A stretch of 64,000 bases of DNA, from assembly GCA_019359675.1 (NCBI GenBank), contig JAHHGX010000087.1:57458-121457 (forward strand), read 5' to 3'. A model generated the notes under the pieces. It worked only from the letters and a program-made list of their open reading frames with translations, was not told the origin of the DNA and did not search any database. Made by a program: the position numbers and the translations under genes. The DNA is from Calothrix sp. FI2-JRJ7. Lineage in GTDB: Bacteria; Cyanobacteriota; Cyanobacteriia; Cyanobacteriales; Nostocaceae. Below, piece by piece: positions 41,097 to 49,773 of this stretch (its first letter is position 1; every line of letters begins with the position of its first letter).

Positions 41097-42491
41097 ATGA
41101 ACAAGACTAAGCTAACTATATTATTAAGTTTTGCTACACTCCTAACTATTGTTGGGCTATACGCAAGGATTTCTAAGGAATCTAGTAATGCTGTTCCACC
41201 CCCTTCTGTTGAGGCGCCACAAAAGACTAAACTACCTGTGTCACCTCTCAAACCAGAAGTTCTACAAAAAATTCTTGATACGCAAAATGTCAACTCTGGT
41301 ATTCAATATGTCGAAAAGTCATGGCAACAGCAATATCAAGACTACCTTCAAGCTAAGTTACCTTCTAATCAAATATTCGATGCTCAACAAATGAGTCGAA
41401 TATTAGATAAACTTCACCAACAATCAGGTAAAAAAAGTGCTTTAATATACGCTATTCCTACACCAAAACACTTAGAATTAATGTTGGTGGCGCCTGGTAT
41501 AACTCCCATTCATAAACGAATTCCAGCCGGAAAGCGAGATGAATTAATAAAACTTGTTAGTAAATTTCGGACAGCTATCGTAAATCCGAATTTACCACGC
41601 GATGAGTACCTAAGTTCTGGTAAGCAAATATATGAATTGGTTATAGCTCCTTTGGAAGGAACATTACGAGGACAAAAAATTAATAATTTAATATTTTGTT
41701 TAGGTGGTGGTTTACGAACCGTTCCTTTAGCTGCGATTAATGATGGTAAAAGATTTTTAATCGAAAAATACAGTCTGGGCATTATCCCAGCTTTTAACTT
41801 ACTCGATTTTAACAGAGCCAATATTGCCCAGACTCAAATTTTAGCAATGGGCGCCTCGCAATTTCAAACTCAAGAACCTTTACCCGCCGTACCCCTAGAA
41901 TTATCGAGTATAGTTAATAACGAGTGGAAAGGCAAATCTTTATTAAATCAAGCTTTTACACCAACAAACTTAAAGCTACAACGTGCAATATATCCGTTTG
42001 GCATTGTACATTTAGCTACTCATGCGGAATTATCACCCGATTCTGTAGAACATTCGTACATCCAATTTTGGGACAAAAAGGTTCGGTTAGATGAACTCAA
42101 AACCCTAAATTTAAACAAACCCCCTGTACAGCTATTAGTACTAAGTGCTTGTCGTACTGCTTTAGGAAACCCGCAAGCTGAATTAGGTTTTGCTGGGTTA
42201 GCAGTACAGTCAGGTGCGTCTTCGACAATAGCAAGTTTGTGGTCGGTTGATGATGCGGGTACTTTAGCTTTAATGTCTCAATTTTACCAACAACTTAAAG
42301 ATACCCCAATCAAATCAGAAGCACTGCGACAAACTCAAATTGCTATGATTAAACAGCAAGTTAGCTTAAAAAATAATCCAGCAATTCGTGGTAGCAGTAA
42401 TTTGCCTACAGATATTACTAACTTAAACAGTCGAGAGTTATCACATCCTTATTATTGGGCAGGTTTTACCTTAATTGGTAATCCTTGGTAG
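41097..42491 (+). CDS. CHAT domain (caspase-like) protease, membrane or exported
   Basis: A 464-residue protein. The N-terminus (KLTILLSFATLLTIVGLYA) is a hydrophobic anchor or signal. The CHAT domain occupies about 180-464. The predicted catalytic dyad is His309 in LATHAE and Cys352 in LSACRTALG, both intact; LGFAGLAVQSGASSTIASLW and the end YYWAGFTLIGNPW are standard for the family. Residues 27-180 form a helical region of unknown role. Such CHAT proteins are common in filamentous cyanobacteria, usually with TPR repeats, which are absent here. It precedes the sigma/DUF1822/CHAT-CHASE2 genes on the same strand. Confidence 0.88.
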   Translation: MNKTKLTILLSFATLLTIVGLYARISKESSNAVPPPSVEAPQKTKLPVSPLKPEVLQKILDTQNVNSGIQYVEKSWQQQYQDYLQAKLPSNQIFDAQQMSRILDKLHQQSGKKSALIYAIPTPKHLELMLVAPGITPIHKRIPAGKRDELIKLVSKFRTAIVNPNLPRDEYLSSGKQIYELVIAPLEGTLRGQKINNLIFCLGGGLRTVPLAAINDGKRFLIEKYSLGIIPAFNLLDFNRANIAQTQILAMGASQFQTQEPLPAVPLELSSIVNNEWKGKSLLNQAFTPTNLKLQRAIYPFGIVHLATHAELSPDSVEHSYIQFWDKKVRLDELKTLNLNKPPVQLLVLSACRTALGNPQAELGFAGLAVQSGASSTIASLWSVDDAGTLALMSQFYQQLKDTPIKSEALRQTQIAMIKQQVSLKNNPAIRGSSNLPTDITNLNSRELSHPYYWAGFTLIGNPW

Positions 42492-42494
42492 GAT

Positions 42495-42557
42495 GTAGGG
42501 TGCGTGACGCTAACAACAATTTTAAAACGAAGCAATAATCTAATAGCGTCACGCACC
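42495..42557. repeat. GTAGGGTGCGT-family hairpin, inner word GACGC
   Basis: GTAGGGTGCGTGACGC (42495-42510) pairs with GCGTCACGCACC (42546-42557). It lies 3 bp after the CHAT stop and separates that gene from the sigma-like gene, so the first CHAT may be a transcription unit of its own. Confidence 0.8.
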
Positions 42558-42588
42558 TTATTAACAAATTACCAAAAAATTTAATTTT

Positions 42589-43773
42589 ATGCGTGTACGT
42601 CAAAATATCACTGACATATTTTCTACCTTTTTACTGTTTTCCGATGACAGAACTAGCGGTTGGGCAACTGATGCTAGACTACATCGCAGTATCAAAGCTT
42701 TTTTGGATAATTCTGATAAATATAAAGAAGAATTTTTAGCTGTATATTGGCACAAACAATCACAAACATCAAAAAATCCTCAACTTGCATTAGGACATAT
42801 GTCCGCTTACTTGCAAGAAGCTTGTTACTGGGCTATATATAAATTGATGCCTCGATTGCAAGAGTCTCAAGAAAAATTCTCAGACTTTTTCCAAATTGCA
42901 ATTGCTGGAGTTCCGAAAATTCTCCACACTTGTAATCCTGATGTTAGTGGTAGTCTCAAAGCATACGCTAGCACAACTTTTGCAAATATTATCCGTAATT
43001 ATTTACGTCAAAACCGAGAAGTTAATTTTTGTACTGATTGGGGTTTACTACTCAAAGTCAGTCGCAAAATTTTGATAGAGTCATTACAAAACTCTGGTTA
43101 TGATACCCCAACGATTGAACGTTATGTACTAGCTTGGAGTTGTTATACTCATATTTACCTACCCCAAAAATCTCCACAACTAAGACAACGAAAAGCGCCT
43201 GACCCTGAAATATGGCAACAAATCGCTGTATACTACAATCAAATCCGTCATCAACTTTCTCATCAAAGTCCAGAATGTAGCAAAGAAAGTATAGAACGTT
43301 GGATAAGCGAATGCGGCGCCCAAGTTCGTAAATATTTGTATCCTTCTGTAAAATCTCTCAACTCTCCCAAACCAGGATATGAAGAAGGAGAAATTCAGGA
43401 TGACCTTGTAGATACATCTTCGTCTTTACTCACAGAACTAATTGAACAAGAACAACAAACCACACGTCTTGACCAAAAAAATCAAATCAATACTCTTTTA
43501 CAAGAAGCTGTTACAAAACTTGACGAATCCGCTCAACAACTACTCCAGCTATACTACCAACAAAATCTCACCCAACAACAAATAGCAAAACAACTAGCAG
43601 TACAACAGTACACTGTATCCCGTAAATTATCCAAAACCCGTGAGTCTTTACTACTAACTCTAACTCGTTGGAGTCAAGAGACGCTGCATATTACCGTAAC
43701 TTCAGACGTGGTTAAATATATCAGCGCAACCCTTGAAGAATGGTTACAGACATACTACACGCAGAAATTATGA
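42589..43773 (+). CDS. Sigma-70 family-like protein with long inter-region insert
   Basis: A 394-residue protein. Residues about 70-165 look like a divergent sigma region 2 (QEACYWAIYKLMPRL, then LKAYASTTFANIIRNYLRQN). The last about 110 residues hold a region-4 helix-turn-helix: LQLYYQQNLTQQQIAKQLAV then QYTVSRKLSKTRESLLL. In between lie about 180 residues rich in polar helices, much more than the short linker of ECF sigma factors. Role as a specialised sigma factor or a sigma-derived regulator is inferred. The stop TGA overlaps the next ATG (ATGA), evidence for translational coupling with DUF1822. Confidence 0.78.
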   Translation: MRVRQNITDIFSTFLLFSDDRTSGWATDARLHRSIKAFLDNSDKYKEEFLAVYWHKQSQTSKNPQLALGHMSAYLQEACYWAIYKLMPRLQESQEKFSDFFQIAIAGVPKILHTCNPDVSGSLKAYASTTFANIIRNYLRQNREVNFCTDWGLLLKVSRKILIESLQNSGYDTPTIERYVLAWSCYTHIYLPQKSPQLRQRKAPDPEIWQQIAVYYNQIRHQLSHQSPECSKESIERWISECGAQVRKYLYPSVKSLNSPKPGYEEGEIQDDLVDTSSSLLTELIEQEQQTTRLDQKNQINTLLQEAVTKLDESAQQLLQLYYQQNLTQQQIAKQLAVQQYTVSRKLSKTRESLLLTLTRWSQETLHITVTSDVVKYISATLEEWLQTYYTQKL

Positions 43774-44885
43774 CTATCCTACTCGATAACCCCAACCAAA
43801 TAGAATTAGAAATTTCTCCAGACCTAGTAGAACAATTATGGCGCCATAAAGGTGCGTCATGGAATATATTTCTCAACCAAGTTTGTTTACAGACCTTTTT
43901 ACCAACATTAGAAGAGGATGTAACATTAGACGAGATATCAGTTCCTAGTTTTTGGACACATGTTAACGGCGCCGCTTTTACTTGGAGAAATAAACGTATA
44001 ATCTTAATACCAGAAATATCTATAGATACAACAGAATGCACAATACCCCAAGAATGGGTAGATATTCCTAAATTAGCAGGAGATTACTATTTAGCGGTTC
44101 AAATTAATCCAGATGAACTATCGCTGCGAGTTTGGGGATATACTACGCACAAAGATATCAAATTATCAGCTACTTACAATTTTGATAGAACATACAGTCT
44201 AGATGCTCAATATTTTATTCCCGATTTAAACGTGTTATGGGTAGTTAGTCAATTAAACCCGAATGAACCTACTCGTGTTACGGTTCCTGCTTTATCTCCA
44301 GTTCCTGCAACCCAAGCAGAAAATTTACTATCCAGATTAGCAAATTCCAATATTATCCAACCTCGATTAGAAATACCTTTTTCGTTATGGGCAGGGTTAA
44401 TAACAGATGATAACTGGCGCCAGCGTTTATATCAACTGCGTCAAGGAATATCTATTAAAACGAACCTTGGTCAGTGGTTACAAAATACTTTTGCTGATAC
44501 CTGGCAATCGTTGGATACTATATTATCTCCTAACTTGGGCGCCAGTTTTGGGTTGAGAACAACGGAAAATGATACATCTATCAAAAGGGTGAAATCTTTA
44601 AATTTGCCAAGTGGTGAAGCTTTTTTAGTGTTGGGATTGGAAACTGAGGCAGATGGTAGAATTGGTATTCGTATTCAATTACGTTCTAGTAGTCAAGATG
44701 AGTATTTAGCACCTGGGACTAGTTTGAAGTTGGTTTCTGCGAATGGTGATGTTATTCAGTCGGTTCAATCGCGTAATTTAGATAATATTATTCAGTTGAA
44801 GCGGTTTAAGAGTCCTGTTGGTGTTGAGTTTAGTGTTCGAGTTGAAGTTGGAGAGTTTGTGGTGATGGAAGATTTTGTGTTGTAA
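43770..44885 (+). CDS. DUF1822 family protein
   Basis: The ATG at 43770 overlaps the sigma-gene stop (ATGA) and is favoured over an upstream in-frame ATG at 43740. The 371-residue protein matches DUF1822, a family confined to cyanobacteria: NPNQIELEISPDLVEQLWRH at the start, WTHVNGAAFTWRNKRIILIP, GDYYLAVQINPDELSLRVWG, then a mid-part W-x-(x)-L-R-Q-G and a C-terminal beta-rich domain (FLVLGLETEADGRIGIRIQL) of the kind seen with sigma/CHAT neighbours. No membrane segments. Function unknown. The coupling makes it a candidate partner, for example an anti-sigma or protease substrate. Confidence 0.85.
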   Translation: MTILLDNPNQIELEISPDLVEQLWRHKGASWNIFLNQVCLQTFLPTLEEDVTLDEISVPSFWTHVNGAAFTWRNKRIILIPEISIDTTECTIPQEWVDIPKLAGDYYLAVQINPDELSLRVWGYTTHKDIKLSATYNFDRTYSLDAQYFIPDLNVLWVVSQLNPNEPTRVTVPALSPVPATQAENLLSRLANSNIIQPRLEIPFSLWAGLITDDNWRQRLYQLRQGISIKTNLGQWLQNTFADTWQSLDTILSPNLGASFGLRTTENDTSIKRVKSLNLPSGEAFLVLGLETEADGRIGIRIQLRSSSQDEYLAPGTSLKLVSANGDVIQSVQSRNLDNIIQLKRFKSPVGVEFSVRVEVGEFVVMEDFVL

Positions 44886-44902
44886 TGTGAGATTTTTTAT
44901 TT

Positions 44903-44931
44903 TACCACAGAGGCGCAGAGGGCACAGAGAA
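44903..44931. repeat. ACCACAGAGG...CACAGAGA repeat before CHAT-CHASE2 gene
   Basis: A G/A-rich tract (ACCACAGAGGCGCAGAGGGC and on) immediately before AAAAAGAAA-ATG of the next gene. It is a dispersed sequence (compare about 54653-54673 and 3200-3219) and here doubles as a purine-rich ribosome-binding region. Confidence 0.55.
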
Positions 44932-44938
44932 AAAGAAA

Positions 44939-47293
44939 ATGCATCGACAAATTATTTTAAATTTGGGACAAGGTGATTTGTTACAAGGGTTTCCAACTGT
45001 AACTGTGCAATTTTGGGACTCGGAAAGAACCAGTATGCAGTTTACTGGGAGTTTGCCTCCAATGCCAAATCTTGATACACTTTATCAACGTTGGCAATTA
45101 TTGTACAAATCGTTTTATGCGAACTTTCGCATTTCCCATGTAAATCCTTATAATCAAAATCAATCTTTGGATTTTGAGATTGATGAGGATGAGGATATTG
45201 GGCAGATTTCTCACGCTGAGTTTCAAGAACTATGTCGAGATGTACAAGTTCAATTTAACCGCTGGTTATGTGCTAACTCTTTTTTAAGTATCGAGCGCAA
45301 ATTACGAACGCACTTAACACCATTTGATGAAATTTATTTTGTGATTGTGGCGCCTTCGCCAATTTTAACATTACCTTGGTCTTTGTGGGACTTTTTATCT
45401 GATTATCCGCTCGCTGAAATTGCTCTTAGTCCTCCTGAATATGCACGTCCCTTTAAAACTAATACACCAAATGGCGCCAAAAAAAAGGTGAAAATTCTCA
45501 GTATTTTGGGTGATAGTACTGGTATTAATGTAACTCAAGACCAAAAGATACTCGTAGAAAAACTTCCAGAAGCAGAAATTACCTTTTTGACAGAACCAAC
45601 GTCACAAGAACTAAACGAACAACTTTGGCAATTAGAATGGGATATATTATTTTTTGCTGGACATAGTTCGAGTCAAGCAAAGGGTTCTATAGGATGTATT
45701 CAAATTAACTCGACGGAAACTCTCACAGTTGAGCAATTGAAGTATGGTTTAAGAAAAGCCATATCTAACGGTTTAAAATTAGCTATCTTTAACTCTTGTG
45801 ATGGTTTGGGGTTAGCTGTTGATTTGGCAGATTTACATTTACCGCAAGTCATTGTAATGCGGGAACCTGTTCCTGATAAAGTTGCTCAGGAATTTTTGAA
45901 GCATTTTCTCACTGCTTTCAAACAAGGAAAGTCTCTTTATATTGCGGTTCGAGAAGCAAGGGAAAAGCTACAAGGGTTAGAAGCGCAATTTCCTTGTGCA
46001 ACTTGGCTACCTGTAATTTGTCAAAATCCTGCGGAAGTACCCTTTACTTGGTTAGAATTGTGTGGAAAGCACCCATCCATTCAATTATTCCCATCACGTC
46101 GTGCGTTACAGAAGATTTTGGCATGTACTCTGGCAAGTACGCTATTAGTTACAGGAATCAGATTTTTTGGATTATTATCTGCTGTAGATTTGTGGGCATT
46201 TGATTTATTAATGCGGTCACGAACTCCTGAACCGCCTGATGATAGAATATTAGTTGTTACCGTTACACCCGAAGATATTCAAGCGCAACCGAAAGAGCCT
46301 CGTTATGGTTCTTTATCTGATAGTACACTAAATCGACTACTAACTTACTTAAATAAACATCAACCTACACTGATTGGTCTAGATATCTACCGAGATTATC
46401 CTAGCTTGAAACCAGAATTAGCATCCACATTAAAAAATTCAAACTTAATAGGTGTTTGTAAACGTCCCGATACTAAAGATGACCCCATAGGTACTTTACC
46501 ACCACCAGAAATTCCTGCTTCACAGTTAGCATTTAGCGATTTTGTTCAAGATAATGACGGTGCAATTAGGCGCCATTTATTATTTATGACACCAAATACA
46601 ACTTCTCGTTGTACAGCATCATATGCATTTAGTACAAAGCTTGCAATTCAATATTTATACGCTCAACATAATATTAAAACAGAATTTACACCCAATGGAA
46701 ATTTAAAATTAGGTAAAACTATATTTCCATCTATAAGCGCACGTACAGGAGGATATCAAGGTATAAATTCGTCAGGGAGTCAGATATTATTAAATTATCG
46801 GGCAATGACTGACCCCAACATGATATCACAAAGAGTCACACTCAAAGATATTTTCAGCGATAAAGTAAATCCGCAAGCTATCAAAAATCGTATCATCTTA
46901 ATTGGCATAGTAGACCGTAGTGCAGGTGATTATTGGTCAACTCCCTATGGTGCGAGTTCAAACAAAATACCCGGTGTGTTAGTTCATGCACATATGTTGA
47001 GTCAAATACTCAGCGCAGTTTTAGATAACAGACCATTACTATGGGTTTGGTCAATCTGGCAAGAAATTATTTGGATTGCTTGCTGGTCAACACTTGGTGG
47101 ATTTATTGCTTGGAAATTTCGTAGAATATTATTTATGGGTATTGCTGTGTCTATCACAGTCATAATACTATTTACTACGTGTTGGATAATACTAAATTAT
47201 AGTGGTTGGGTGCCTTTGATGGCACCGTTATTAAGTTTTGTGATAAGTAATGGCGCCGTCGTTTTTATATTATTAAACAATAAAGACATTTAA
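44939..47293 (+). CDS. CHAT protease - CHASE2 transmembrane sensor protein
   Basis: A 784-residue protein. Residues about 1-375 form a soluble CHAT domain with His242 (FFAGHSSSQ) and Cys287 (FNSCDGLG) as the predicted dyad, plus VIVMREPVPDKVAQEFLKHF and a closing LPVICQNP. A first membrane helix lies at about 391-415. Residues 416-650 are an extracytoplasmic CHASE2 domain: AFDLLMRSR, LNRLLTYLNKHQPTLIGLDI, then FSDKVNPQAIKNRIILIG and TPYG...PGVLVHAHMLSQIL. Three more helices end the protein (about 690-780). In other proteins CHASE2 senses extracytoplasmic signals ahead of kinases or cyclases; here it is coupled to a protease. It lies 53 bp after DUF1822. Confidence 0.9.
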   Translation: MHRQIILNLGQGDLLQGFPTVTVQFWDSERTSMQFTGSLPPMPNLDTLYQRWQLLYKSFYANFRISHVNPYNQNQSLDFEIDEDEDIGQISHAEFQELCRDVQVQFNRWLCANSFLSIERKLRTHLTPFDEIYFVIVAPSPILTLPWSLWDFLSDYPLAEIALSPPEYARPFKTNTPNGAKKKVKILSILGDSTGINVTQDQKILVEKLPEAEITFLTEPTSQELNEQLWQLEWDILFFAGHSSSQAKGSIGCIQINSTETLTVEQLKYGLRKAISNGLKLAIFNSCDGLGLAVDLADLHLPQVIVMREPVPDKVAQEFLKHFLTAFKQGKSLYIAVREAREKLQGLEAQFPCATWLPVICQNPAEVPFTWLELCGKHPSIQLFPSRRALQKILACTLASTLLVTGIRFFGLLSAVDLWAFDLLMRSRTPEPPDDRILVVTVTPEDIQAQPKEPRYGSLSDSTLNRLLTYLNKHQPTLIGLDIYRDYPSLKPELASTLKNSNLIGVCKRPDTKDDPIGTLPPPEIPASQLAFSDFVQDNDGAIRRHLLFMTPNTTSRCTASYAFSTKLAIQYLYAQHNIKTEFTPNGNLKLGKTIFPSISARTGGYQGINSSGSQILLNYRAMTDPNMISQRVTLKDIFSDKVNPQAIKNRIILIGIVDRSAGDYWSTPYGASSNKIPGVLVHAHMLSQILSAVLDNRPLLWVWSIWQEIIWIACWSTLGGFIAWKFRRILFMGIAVSITVIILFTTCWIILNYSGWVPLMAPLLSFVISNGAVVFILLNNKDI

Positions 47294-48987: not shown

Positions 48988-49773
48988 ATGACTACATTGA
49001 AATTTTATACCCATACAGTGAAAATTCTTTTACTTGCTGCAATATCTACAAGTTGCGGAAACCTTCCTAACGCTGAGTCAAAAGAACCACTAAATACTAA
49101 AAACCCTAATTTAATATTAGCATCGATAAAATACGAACCACCCCCACCACCAACAACTAGCGGTGAACCAACAGGAAGGGGAGGACAAGGAGGCGCCGGC
49201 AGAGGTTGTGAACCAACAGCGTTGGTACCAACAATATTGGGTAAGAATCGTAATTATTTGTGGGGACAAACAGTTTCTTCTAGACCTCAATTTTGGTTCG
49301 CATTACCTAGAAATTTAACGAAAAAAGATGCTGTAGAGTTTGTTTTGAAAGATAACCAGGGTAAAGAAATTTATAAAACCACGTTAAAATCAGAAGTTCC
49401 ACATGGAATTGTTAGTTTTAACGTTCCTAATACAACACCACCATTACAAACGAATAAAATTTATAGCTGGTCGTTCTCAGTTTATTGCGATGTTGATACT
49501 GTTGAAGACAAACCAGGCAGTGTGGAGGGTAGTATTCAAAGAGTTACTATATCAACAAAACTAAAAAATCAACTTACAGGCGCCAAAACTCCTATTGAGC
49601 AAGCAGGTATATACGCTCAAAACGGTATATGGTTCGATGCGTTGACTAGTATAGCAGTAAATATGCGCGCCACTAAGTCAAAGGATGCCTCGTTGGCTTG
49701 GAATGAGTTGCTAACGCAGGTAAAGTTAGAAAAAATTGCCAAGCTTCCTGTAACGAATTGTTGTACAAAGTAG
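48988..49773 (+). CDS. DUF928 family exported protein
   Basis: A 261-residue protein with an N-terminal hydrophobic leader (TVKILLLAAISTSCG) ending in a Cys that could be a lipoprotein site, although the lipobox is weak. Then a Pro/Gly-rich stretch (PPPPPTTSGEPTGRGGQGG) and the DUF928 domain: TVSSRPQFWFALP, KDNQGKEIYKTTLK, IVSFNVPNTTPPLQTNK and YSWSFSVYCD, ending with GIWFDALTSIAVNMRA. The family is typical of cyanobacteria and often neighbours CHAT, CHASE2 and sigma genes; its function is unknown. Its stop TAG is part of a perfect palindrome. Confidence 0.85.
   Translation: MTTLKFYTHTVKILLLAAISTSCGNLPNAESKEPLNTKNPNLILASIKYEPPPPPTTSGEPTGRGGQGGAGRGCEPTALVPTILGKNRNYLWGQTVSSRPQFWFALPRNLTKKDAVEFVLKDNQGKEIYKTTLKSEVPHGIVSFNVPNTTPPLQTNKIYSWSFSVYCDVDTVEDKPGSVEGSIQRVTISTKLKNQLTGAKTPIEQAGIYAQNGIWFDALTSIAVNMRATKSKDASLAWNELLTQVKLEKIAKLPVTNCCTK

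Follow-up and report, generated by a model that had tools for sequence, protein, structure and literature searches.

A sigma factor-DUF1822 gene pair beside a CHASE2-linked CHAT protein in cyanobacteria: a possible CRISPR-free protease-sigma switch

Results

A sigma factor and DUF1822 next to a putative membrane protease

In a 64,000-nucleotide stretch of the Calothrix sp. FI2-JRJ7 genome (the window), a sigma factor gene is directly coupled to a DUF1822 gene and followed by a gene for a membrane protein with CHAT and CHASE2 domains. We propose, with a probability of roughly 60%, that DUF1822 acts as an anti-sigma factor and that the CHASE2-gated membrane CHAT protease relieves this inhibition by cleaving DUF1822. 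Soluble DUF1822 would bind the sigma factor and keep it inactive, CHASE2 would detect an extracytoplasmic signal, the triggered protease would cut DUF1822 at a presumed site, and the freed sigma factor would allow its putative regulon to be transcribed. The conserved unit is the sigma factor plus DUF1822, often with an EACC2-CHAT protease (here carrying CHASE2) and often with DUF928. The genes in the window are as follows:

41097..42491, + strand, CHAT protein of 464 aa (Pfam CHAT, E = 1.5e-65), N-terminal membrane stretch at residues 7-25
42589..43773, + strand, sigma-70 family factor of 394 aa (TIGR02937, E = 6.3e-34)
43770..44885, + strand, DUF1822 protein of 371 aa (PF08852, E = 1.2e-78; AF2 pLDDT 86.4)
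44939..47293, + strand, membrane protein of 784 aa (Pfam CHAT, E = 2.5e-13; CHASE2, E = 1.3e-63)
48988..49773, + strand, DUF928 protein (PF06051, E = 3.1e-48)

The DUF1822 open reading frame spans 43740-44885 (+), and the start adopted here is 43770. An earlier note on this sequence had reported that this start overlaps the sigma factor stop, and we see the overlap (stop at 43771-43773) in the ATGA at 43770-43773. The observations of that note at the gene level were confirmed overall, and its interpretation was partly supported. The DUF928 protein has an N terminus that resembles a lipoprotein signal when judged by eye.

The 784-aa protein comprises an N-terminal domain, CHAT, CHASE2, and C-terminal membrane stretches. 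The reported fusion of CHAT (His242/Cys287) to CHASE2 holds; of the four membrane helices reported with it, hydropathy recovered three (residues about 393-416, 730-748, and 760-778), the fourth falling under the threshold. By its layout, the N-terminal domain is probably the EACC2 domain described by Kaur et al. Thirteen paralogues in the same genome could be aligned over their N-terminal 370 residues, with a mean column identity of 53%. A Pfam CHAT domain with a His/Cys dyad places the protein among the CHAT proteases, its protease activity being a prediction. In an alignment of 256 rows from 250 proteins, where gaps are due to fragments, the histidine was kept in 249/249 covering rows and the cysteine in 247/247. 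Frequent loss of the dyad, which the earlier note had named as speaking against its proposal, was thus not found. Since the dyad is kept in this way, cleavage of DUF1822 by the CHASE2-linked CHAT domain is plausible.

The anchored upstream CHAT protein described in the earlier note is present, with its membrane stretch and a His309/Cys352 dyad that is kept among relatives (histidine in 67 of 68 and cysteine in 68 of 69 of the rows covering the site, out of 71). Its place in the core of the module did not hold up. A CHAT protein of similar size lies 5' of the sigma gene in 12 close loci (L110 to L121), and none was found at that place in the 60 sampled regions or the other copies in the same genome. 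The protein is a clade-specific upstream neighbor, and its single N-terminal membrane stretch would probably place its CHAT domain outside the cytoplasm.

Conservation of the gene neighborhood

The DUF1822 search matched 188 of 292 genomes (family f31, described below, included). From these we used a phylum sample of 60 regions, hand-picked from the best listed matches and with some genomes represented twice; a named set of the best 80 of 505 matches by similarity to the DUF1822 of the window; a co-occurrence set of 61 hand-chosen genomes, in which the 20 negatives are those among the genomes listed; and an f31 set of 23 loci, mostly best-scoring matches. All four sets are unbalanced for phylogeny and genome size, so counts are given without P values.

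The upstream neighbor of DUF1822 was a sigma factor or sigma-like protein in 146 of 163 copies; 118 of these are clear cases that match the long sigma profile itself, and 28 are sigma-like. Among copies with a visible neighbor, such a gene lay directly 5' on the same strand in 18/19 copies in the same genome, 56/64 in the phylum sample, and 72/80 in the named set, where the median gap was 2 bases with many overlaps (taking the first possible start). The gene-order check suggested earlier thus came out positively: the order recurs over the phylum and is therefore more than chance. The short proteins found 5' of some DUF1822 genes count against the proposal, with sigma models matching 3 of 8 in an NCBIfam scan and 0 of 9 in a Pfam scan. 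As a family, they matched the f31 sigma profile (E = 3e-4), whereas against the long sigma profile the match (E = 0.032) was no better than a sigma-DUF1822 control (E = 0.042).

DUF928 was the second or third gene 3' of DUF1822 in 41/70 named, 12/61 sampled, and 7/17 same-genome copies. It thus often accompanies the CHASE2-type protease on its downstream side.

The protease adjoins DUF1822 in only 29 of 64 phylum-sample copies, which counts against the proposed three-part switch and would suit an explanation in which protease and sigma pair are mere neighbors that paralogous duplication has kept side by side and that are not functionally coupled. We consider this improbable. The order sigma-DUF1822-protease is kept in 64 of 82 named-set copies, although that set was chosen by similarity, and EACC2-CHAT (E <= 1e-30) occurred in 27 of 30 selected DUF1822-positive genomes of the class of the window but in 0 of 20 DUF1822-negative genomes, which tend to be smaller. 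Co-variation bears on the same question. Partial correlations between distance matrices, computed for 39 thinned triplets with 300 permutations, were 0.66 for sigma-DUF1822 given the protease and 0.40 for DUF1822-protease given sigma (each above 300/300 permutations), and 0.31 for sigma-protease given DUF1822. The co-variation is thus closer between sigma factor and DUF1822 than between either of them and the protease, whose modest values are also what mere neighbors could give. A mirror tree of four triplets from the same genome pointed the opposite way (-0.63) and counts against the coupling picture.

Distant homologues resemble membrane anti-sigma factors

Anti-sigma factors of the RseA/RsiW type are cut by regulated proteolysis. 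Outside the class of the window, the DUF1822 N-domain was located in a membrane protein (family f31), with Pfam E values of 5e-16 (L190), 5.6e-12 (L191), 1.2e-11 (L230), 2.2e-11 (L232), 3.3e-11 (L233), and 1.5e-7 (L248); Pfam gave no DUF1822 match in L192 (E <= 1) or L243 (E <= 0.1). A small sigma gene on the same strand adjoins in 21 of 22 cases, supported by a profile match over sigma4 (E = 6.9e-8). All eight f31 proteins tested have a membrane stretch, and the C terminus is TonB_2-like. We infer a layout in which a membrane stretch separates an anti-sigma-like region on the cytosolic side from a C-terminal domain on the opposite side, which would resemble RseA/RsiW. In the class of the window, by contrast, the inhibitor would be soluble, and the predicted protease itself would serve as membrane sensor. 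The one-piece membrane anti-sigma factor of the distant genomes may be the older form, which the class of the window would have replaced with soluble DUF1822 and a separate membrane sensor-protease.

The H-x3-C-x2-C anti-sigma motif occurs in 6 of 23 f31 proteins; the 17 without it count against the anti-sigma reading. In genome G016, the motif lies midprotein in both proteins of near-canonical length. When 7 of the 8 zinc-motif proteins were scanned, zf-HC2 was above the cutoff in L190 (28.8 versus 22.2 bits), below it in L232, L233, and L248, and absent from L230, L243, and the first G016 protein. The distant homologues also gave a weak RsrA match.

DUF1822 is most likely the anti-sigma factor of the adjacent sigma factor, as the earlier note had suspected, given the gene coupling, the co-variation, and the zinc motif or membrane layout seen in distant homologues. 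From tight coupling alone the sign of the effect cannot be read, and DUF1822 might instead be a positive partner (a sigma chaperone, activator, or protease recruiter, with its C-terminal beta-sandwich as a binding module) while the protease cuts another protein. The zf-HC2 and weak RsrA matches, together with the membrane anti-sigma layout of the distant homologues, make this rather unlikely.

Structure of DUF1822 and candidate sites

The model of DUF1822 divides into four parts:

43770..44270, + strand, N-terminal alpha/beta domain (residues about 1-167), common to genomes outside the class of the window
44295..44444, + strand, middle helices (residues about 176-225; AF2 model), at the position of the distant zinc-motif region
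44517..44570, + strand, inter-domain loop of low confidence (residues about 250-267; AF2 model), with conserved Arg263
44580..44882, + strand, C-terminal beta-sandwich (residues 271-371; AF2 model)

The middle helices are a candidate degenerate anti-sigma domain. Equating them with the f31 zinc region rests on position and length, because the profile alignment with f31 (E = 0.0018, probability 15%) covers the N-domain only and stops short of the helices. The DUF1822 of the window has no C-x-x-C and hence no H-x3-C-x2-C (ZAS) motif. The inter-domain loop with Arg263 is a candidate cleavage region, and Arg263 is the weaker as a cut site because it is kept in three genomes without EACC2-CHAT. As to homology with Csx30, the inhibitor of the type III-E CASP system, DUF1822 had no NCBIfam family at E <= 1 and no significant PDB sequence match, and the fold search was weak.

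The sigma factor does not look ECF-type

Pfam placed region 2 at residues 82-143 (E = 3.1e-5; 24.1 versus a cutoff of 24) and region 4 at residues 310-354 (E = 4.6e-7, above the cutoff), with a conserved helical region between them. The AF2 model (pLDDT 86.4, pTM 0.47) is consistent with the order sigma2, helical sigma3-like region, disordered linker, and sigma4. All 50 Foldseek rows listed were, by title, either sigma factors or the sigma chains in structures of transcription complexes (288-379 columns); these matches (sigma A, B, S, 28, and 32) were nearly full-length but had TMq values of 0.16-0.22 and rmsd values of 18.6-26.6. The linker is conserved yet disordered:

43345..43428, + strand, sigma linker (residues about 253-280), pLDDT <50 at 255-277

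S256, N258, and D271 in it are invariant in 55 sequences, and it holds what we take to be a sigma3.2-like motif. ECF sigma factors consist of sigma2 and sigma4 only, without sigma3. The conserved helical region and the Foldseek matches speak against this type, and the modeled sigma factor of the window does not look like one. The "long insert" that had been offered as an alternative cleavage target is not supported as such, because it consists of the conserved helical, sigma3-like region and the linker.

Discussion

The locus itself is not new. The relevant parts of Kaur et al. (PMC8195603) describe EACC2-caspase neighborhoods with an "ECF sigma" and a "TPR protein" DUF1822; what is new here is the proposed role for DUF1822. 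The window has the same composition, with sigma factor and DUF1822 beside a caspase-fold protein that has an N-terminal alpha+beta domain, a caspase domain, and a variable C terminus (CHASE2). Two labels differ in those parts of the paper: the sigma factor called ECF has a sigma3-like region in the window, and the DUF1822 called TPR, for which we propose an anti-sigma role, gave no Pfam TPR match (E <= 1) and is modeled as an alpha/beta domain, a few helices, and a beta-sandwich.

The same source proposes autopeptidase activation. The protease could accordingly be mainly an autopeptidase in a conflict or cell-death-type response, with sigma factor and DUF1822 as output accessories (Kaur et al. 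2021). The variable C-terminal domains of the protease family (e.g., Peripla_BP and ANF_receptor), the 19 DUF1822 matches in this genome (fragments counted), and the match to BovA that PADLOC gave for the upstream CHAT protein (E = 1.4e-7) would fit such a role, which we nevertheless regard as unlikely, if less so than the other alternatives. Neither DUF1822 nor the 784-aa protein had a PADLOC match. Of 30 tested genomes of the class of the window, 3 have the sigma-DUF1822 pair but lack the protease, and EACC2-CHAT (E <= 1e-30) was found in 0 of 11 genomes of family f31, where the N-domain also pairs with a sigma factor; the pair thus looks like an autonomous regulator.

Returning to the proposed protease-sigma switch, a close functional parallel is the type III-E CASP system of Csx29 protease, Csx30 inhibitor, and CASP-sigma, as outlined in the passages of Strecker et al. 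(2022; PMC10028731) that concern it; RseA/RsiW-type anti-sigma factors are also named there. Both would combine a CHAT protease, a two-domain sigma inhibitor with flexible parts, and a sigma factor. The CASP signal is target RNA, whereas the signal proposed here would come through membrane CHASE2, and CASP-sigma is ECF-like, unlike the sigma factor of the window. Family cutoffs for CASP membership were not reached: Csx29 (NF041237) scored 20.3 bits on the upstream CHAT protein (cutoff, 300) and had no match at E <= 1 on the 784-aa protein. CASP-sigma (cutoff, 100 bits) was absent from the best 25 of 54 families for the sigma factor of the window, among which only TIGR02937 exceeded 100 bits; two short sigma factors reached 19.8 and 20 bits against it. 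By analogy, then, the module may work like the CRISPR Csx29-Csx30-sigma system without being a member of it.

More tentatively, and with slightly less than even odds, DUF1822 may be a phylum-wide, unrecognized anti-sigma family of membrane zinc origin that was split, in the cyanobacteria proper, into a soluble inhibitor and a CHASE2-gated caspase-like protease, forming a CRISPR-free counterpart of Csx29-Csx30-sigma with about 19 copies in this genome. If true, a large domain of unknown function would gain a role, a widespread cyanobacterial caspase-like membrane protein a possible target, and the CRISPR protease-sigma switch a functional counterpart that senses the cell exterior instead of RNA.

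HetF, described in the part of an mBio 2021 paper (PMC8406250) that introduces it as a membrane-anchored CHAT putative protease of cyanobacteria, resembles the 784-aa protein in all these respects. Identity is rejected by the score (31.5 bits versus a HetF cutoff of 1200), and an above-cutoff HetF match of 1406.8 bits lies elsewhere in the genome (G000:C20).

The sigma-DUF1822-protease unit and its nearest relatives

ORF, Pfam, and NCBIfam scans of the window confirmed the four genes described in an earlier note, as well as the ATGA at 43770-43773, in which the stop codon of sigma overlaps the start codon of DUF1822.

41097-42491, + strand: 464-aa CHAT protein
42492-42588: long inverted repeat
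42589-43773, + strand: sigma factor
43770-44885, + strand: DUF1822 protein
44939-47293, + strand: 784-aa membrane protein with an N-terminal domain (EACC2 by layout), CHAT, and CHASE2
from 47752, downstream of the module: MFS transporter (Pfam)
from 48988, downstream of the module: DUF928 protein (Pfam)

The best reading of this unit is that DUF1822 would sequester the sigma factor and that the CHASE2-linked CHAT protease would free the sigma factor from it. We give an anti-sigma role of DUF1822 a probability of about 0.75.

Judged by sequence identity, the closest relatives are Calothrix-like: the 784-aa protein is 96% identical over its first 380 residues to that of Dulcicalothrix desertica PCC 7102, and DUF1822 identity is 94 to 97% in four close loci (L110-L112 and L119). 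The ~464-aa CHAT protein lies upstream of sigma in 12 close loci (L110-L121) and in 0 of 60 sampled phylum regions. The inverted repeat (GGTGCGTGACGCTA ... TAGCGTCACGCACC) separates the upstream CHAT gene from the sigma gene and is present in close locus L113 and absent from the more distant loci aligned. It looks like an interspersed repeat and may separate the upstream CHAT and sigma transcripts.

Gene order and co-occurrence

We annotated the genes around the 19 DUF1822 matches of the window's own genome (fragments counted), 60 regions of other phylum genomes, and 80 named loci (the best 80 of 505 by similarity to the window DUF1822). Counting only copies with a visible neighbor, a sigma or sigma-like gene lay immediately upstream of DUF1822 on the same strand in 18/19 own-genome, 56/64 phylum-sample, and 72/80 named copies. 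These 146 upstream genes comprise 118 with a match to the long sigma profile, 24 from a ~220-aa family, and 4 from a ~470-aa family, which profile comparison identifies as sigma (E = 1.4e-10). The sigma assignment of the ~220-aa family is weaker: NCBIfam sigma models were matched by 3/8 members tested and the Pfam sigma model by 0/9, and its profile matched the long sigma at an E value of 0.032 (unrelated control, 0.042) and the sigmas of f31, a family outside the window's class in the same phylum, at 3e-4. The EACC2-CHAT gene directly follows DUF1822 in 10/17, 29/64, and 73/80 copies of the three sets, respectively, and DUF928 lies two or three genes downstream in 7/17, 12/61, and 41/70. One locus (L071) holds a decayed module with a short sigma, DUF1822 in two pieces, the protease, and CHASE2 and DUF928 pieces in the same order.

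When genomes were searched with the EACC2-CHAT alignment (E ≤ 1e-30), the protease was found in 27/30 DUF1822-positive genomes of the window's class, in 0/20 DUF1822-negative genomes, which tend to be smaller, and in 0/11 f31 genomes; the genomes are not independent of each other. The three protease-free exceptions, G078 (locus L059), G054 (L070), and G143 (L058), keep the sigma-DUF1822 pair. From this pattern, EACC2-CHAT seems to depend on DUF1822, and DUF1822 not on EACC2-CHAT.

The window sigma factor

The AF2 model of the window sigma (pLDDT 86.4, pTM 0.47) is mainly helical with one disordered stretch at residues 255-277. By title, all 50 Foldseek matches listed are sigma factors or chains named as sigma in transcription complexes, with sigma A, B, S, 32, and 28 represented; 10 of the 50 reach an E value of 0.001. 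The alignments span 288 to 379 columns, but superposition is poor, with TMq at 0.16-0.22 and rmsd at 18.6-26.6. Domains that agree in order and not in arrangement would give this result, and we therefore count it as moderate evidence. Residues S256, N258, and D271 of the linker are invariant, a pattern resembling that of sigma region 3.2. Given these residues and the Foldseek matches, the long insert looks like a functional sigma region. The earlier note's observations are confirmed, and its interpretation holds in part and in a sharper form: DUF1822 as a sigma inhibitor is supported, and its alternative that the protease cuts the long sigma insert is not, as the helical model, the sigma-only titles, and the invariant linker speak against it. 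Nor does the window sigma look like an ECF type.

Distant DUF1822-like proteins

The f31 genomes (~1.5-2.5 Mb) each have one DUF1822 match among the matches listed (23 loci, mostly the best-scoring matches), mostly to the N-domain only, in open frames of 518 to 1313 aa. Pfam DUF1822 was found in L190, L191, L230, L232, L233, and L248 and was not found in L192 or L243. In 21 of the 22 proteins whose next same-strand gene is visible, that gene encodes a small sigma; DUF1822 comes first here, opposite to the window order. An H-x3-C-x2-C motif lies ~35-40 residues C-terminal of the N-domain in 6/23 proteins; in the other 17, the motif positions align gap-free and the ligands are absent. The L190 protein exceeds the Pfam zf-HC2 cut-off (28.8 versus 22.2 bits) and matches RsrA weakly (17.5 bits; cut-off, 62.5). 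Membrane stretches were predicted in all eight proteins tested, two in L232 and a single one in each of the other seven. In two of five scanned proteins the TonB_2-like C-terminus exceeds the cut-off, and in three it falls just short. As predicted from sequence, this architecture matches that of a membrane anti-sigma factor. Genome G016 (family f30) encodes two proteins (412 and ~377 aa) with the zinc motif mid-protein, the first beside a weakly sigma-like neighbor (TIGR02937, E = 0.0032). By eye, the f31 DUF1822-N genes at L197 and L198 lie near flagellar-export-like genes.

DUF1822 and the protease

Distances co-vary most tightly between sigma and DUF1822. Partial correlations in 39 thinned triplets were 0.66 for sigma-DUF1822, 0.40 for DUF1822-protease, and 0.31 for sigma-protease (0.74, 0.30, and 0.29 in all 69); the four own-genome triplets show the opposite trend (-0.63, 0.87, and 0.78).

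In the AF2 model of DUF1822 (pLDDT 86.4), the N-domain is alpha/beta and is followed by helices at ~180-225, a loop at ~250-267 that is poorly ordered, and a beta-sandwich at the C-terminus. The fold is not that of a TPR protein. Five copies (L081, L087, L100, L103, and L035:12038-13207) carry long inserts in the interdomain loop with, by eye, HEAT-like repeats. In the CRISPR system (PMC10028731), a flexible linker connects the two domains of Csx30; the N-terminal domain is the one that binds sigma, whereas the cut by Csx29 falls in a flexible loop within the C-terminal domain. The window module would parallel Csx29-Csx30-sigma in function; no membership of its proteins in those families was found. 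The chances that EACC2-CHAT acts on DUF1822 are roughly even, and a cut in loop 250-267 is less likely than not.

Kaur et al. 2021 (PMC8195603) describe EACC2-caspases with variable C-termini near genes for ECF sigma and a "TPR protein (Pfam: DUF1822)" and propose activation by autopeptidase action. The literature located, as far as its text was available, nowhere describes DUF1822 as an anti-sigma factor. The module is already known; the proposed anti-sigma role is apparently new.

In EACC2-CHAT, the N-terminal 370 residues are the conserved unit, followed by a variable C-terminus (CHASE2 in the window; Peripla_BP/ANF_receptor in L035 and L049). The catalytic dyad (His242/Cys287 in the 784-aa protein) is kept in every row covering these positions (H in 249/249 and C in 247/247). 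CHAT precedes and CHASE2 follows the first membrane stretch of the 784-aa protein, so the natural reading is a cytoplasmic CHAT and an extracytoplasmic CHASE2. Two proteins, P0245 (743 aa) and P0246 (740 aa), score above closer relatives on the EACC2-CHAT profile, each with a second partial match, and may carry two copies each. At L098:8512-10278, a single case, the gene that follows a sigma-like gene and DUF1822 encodes, in place of the CHAT protease, a protein bearing two trypsin-like stretches.
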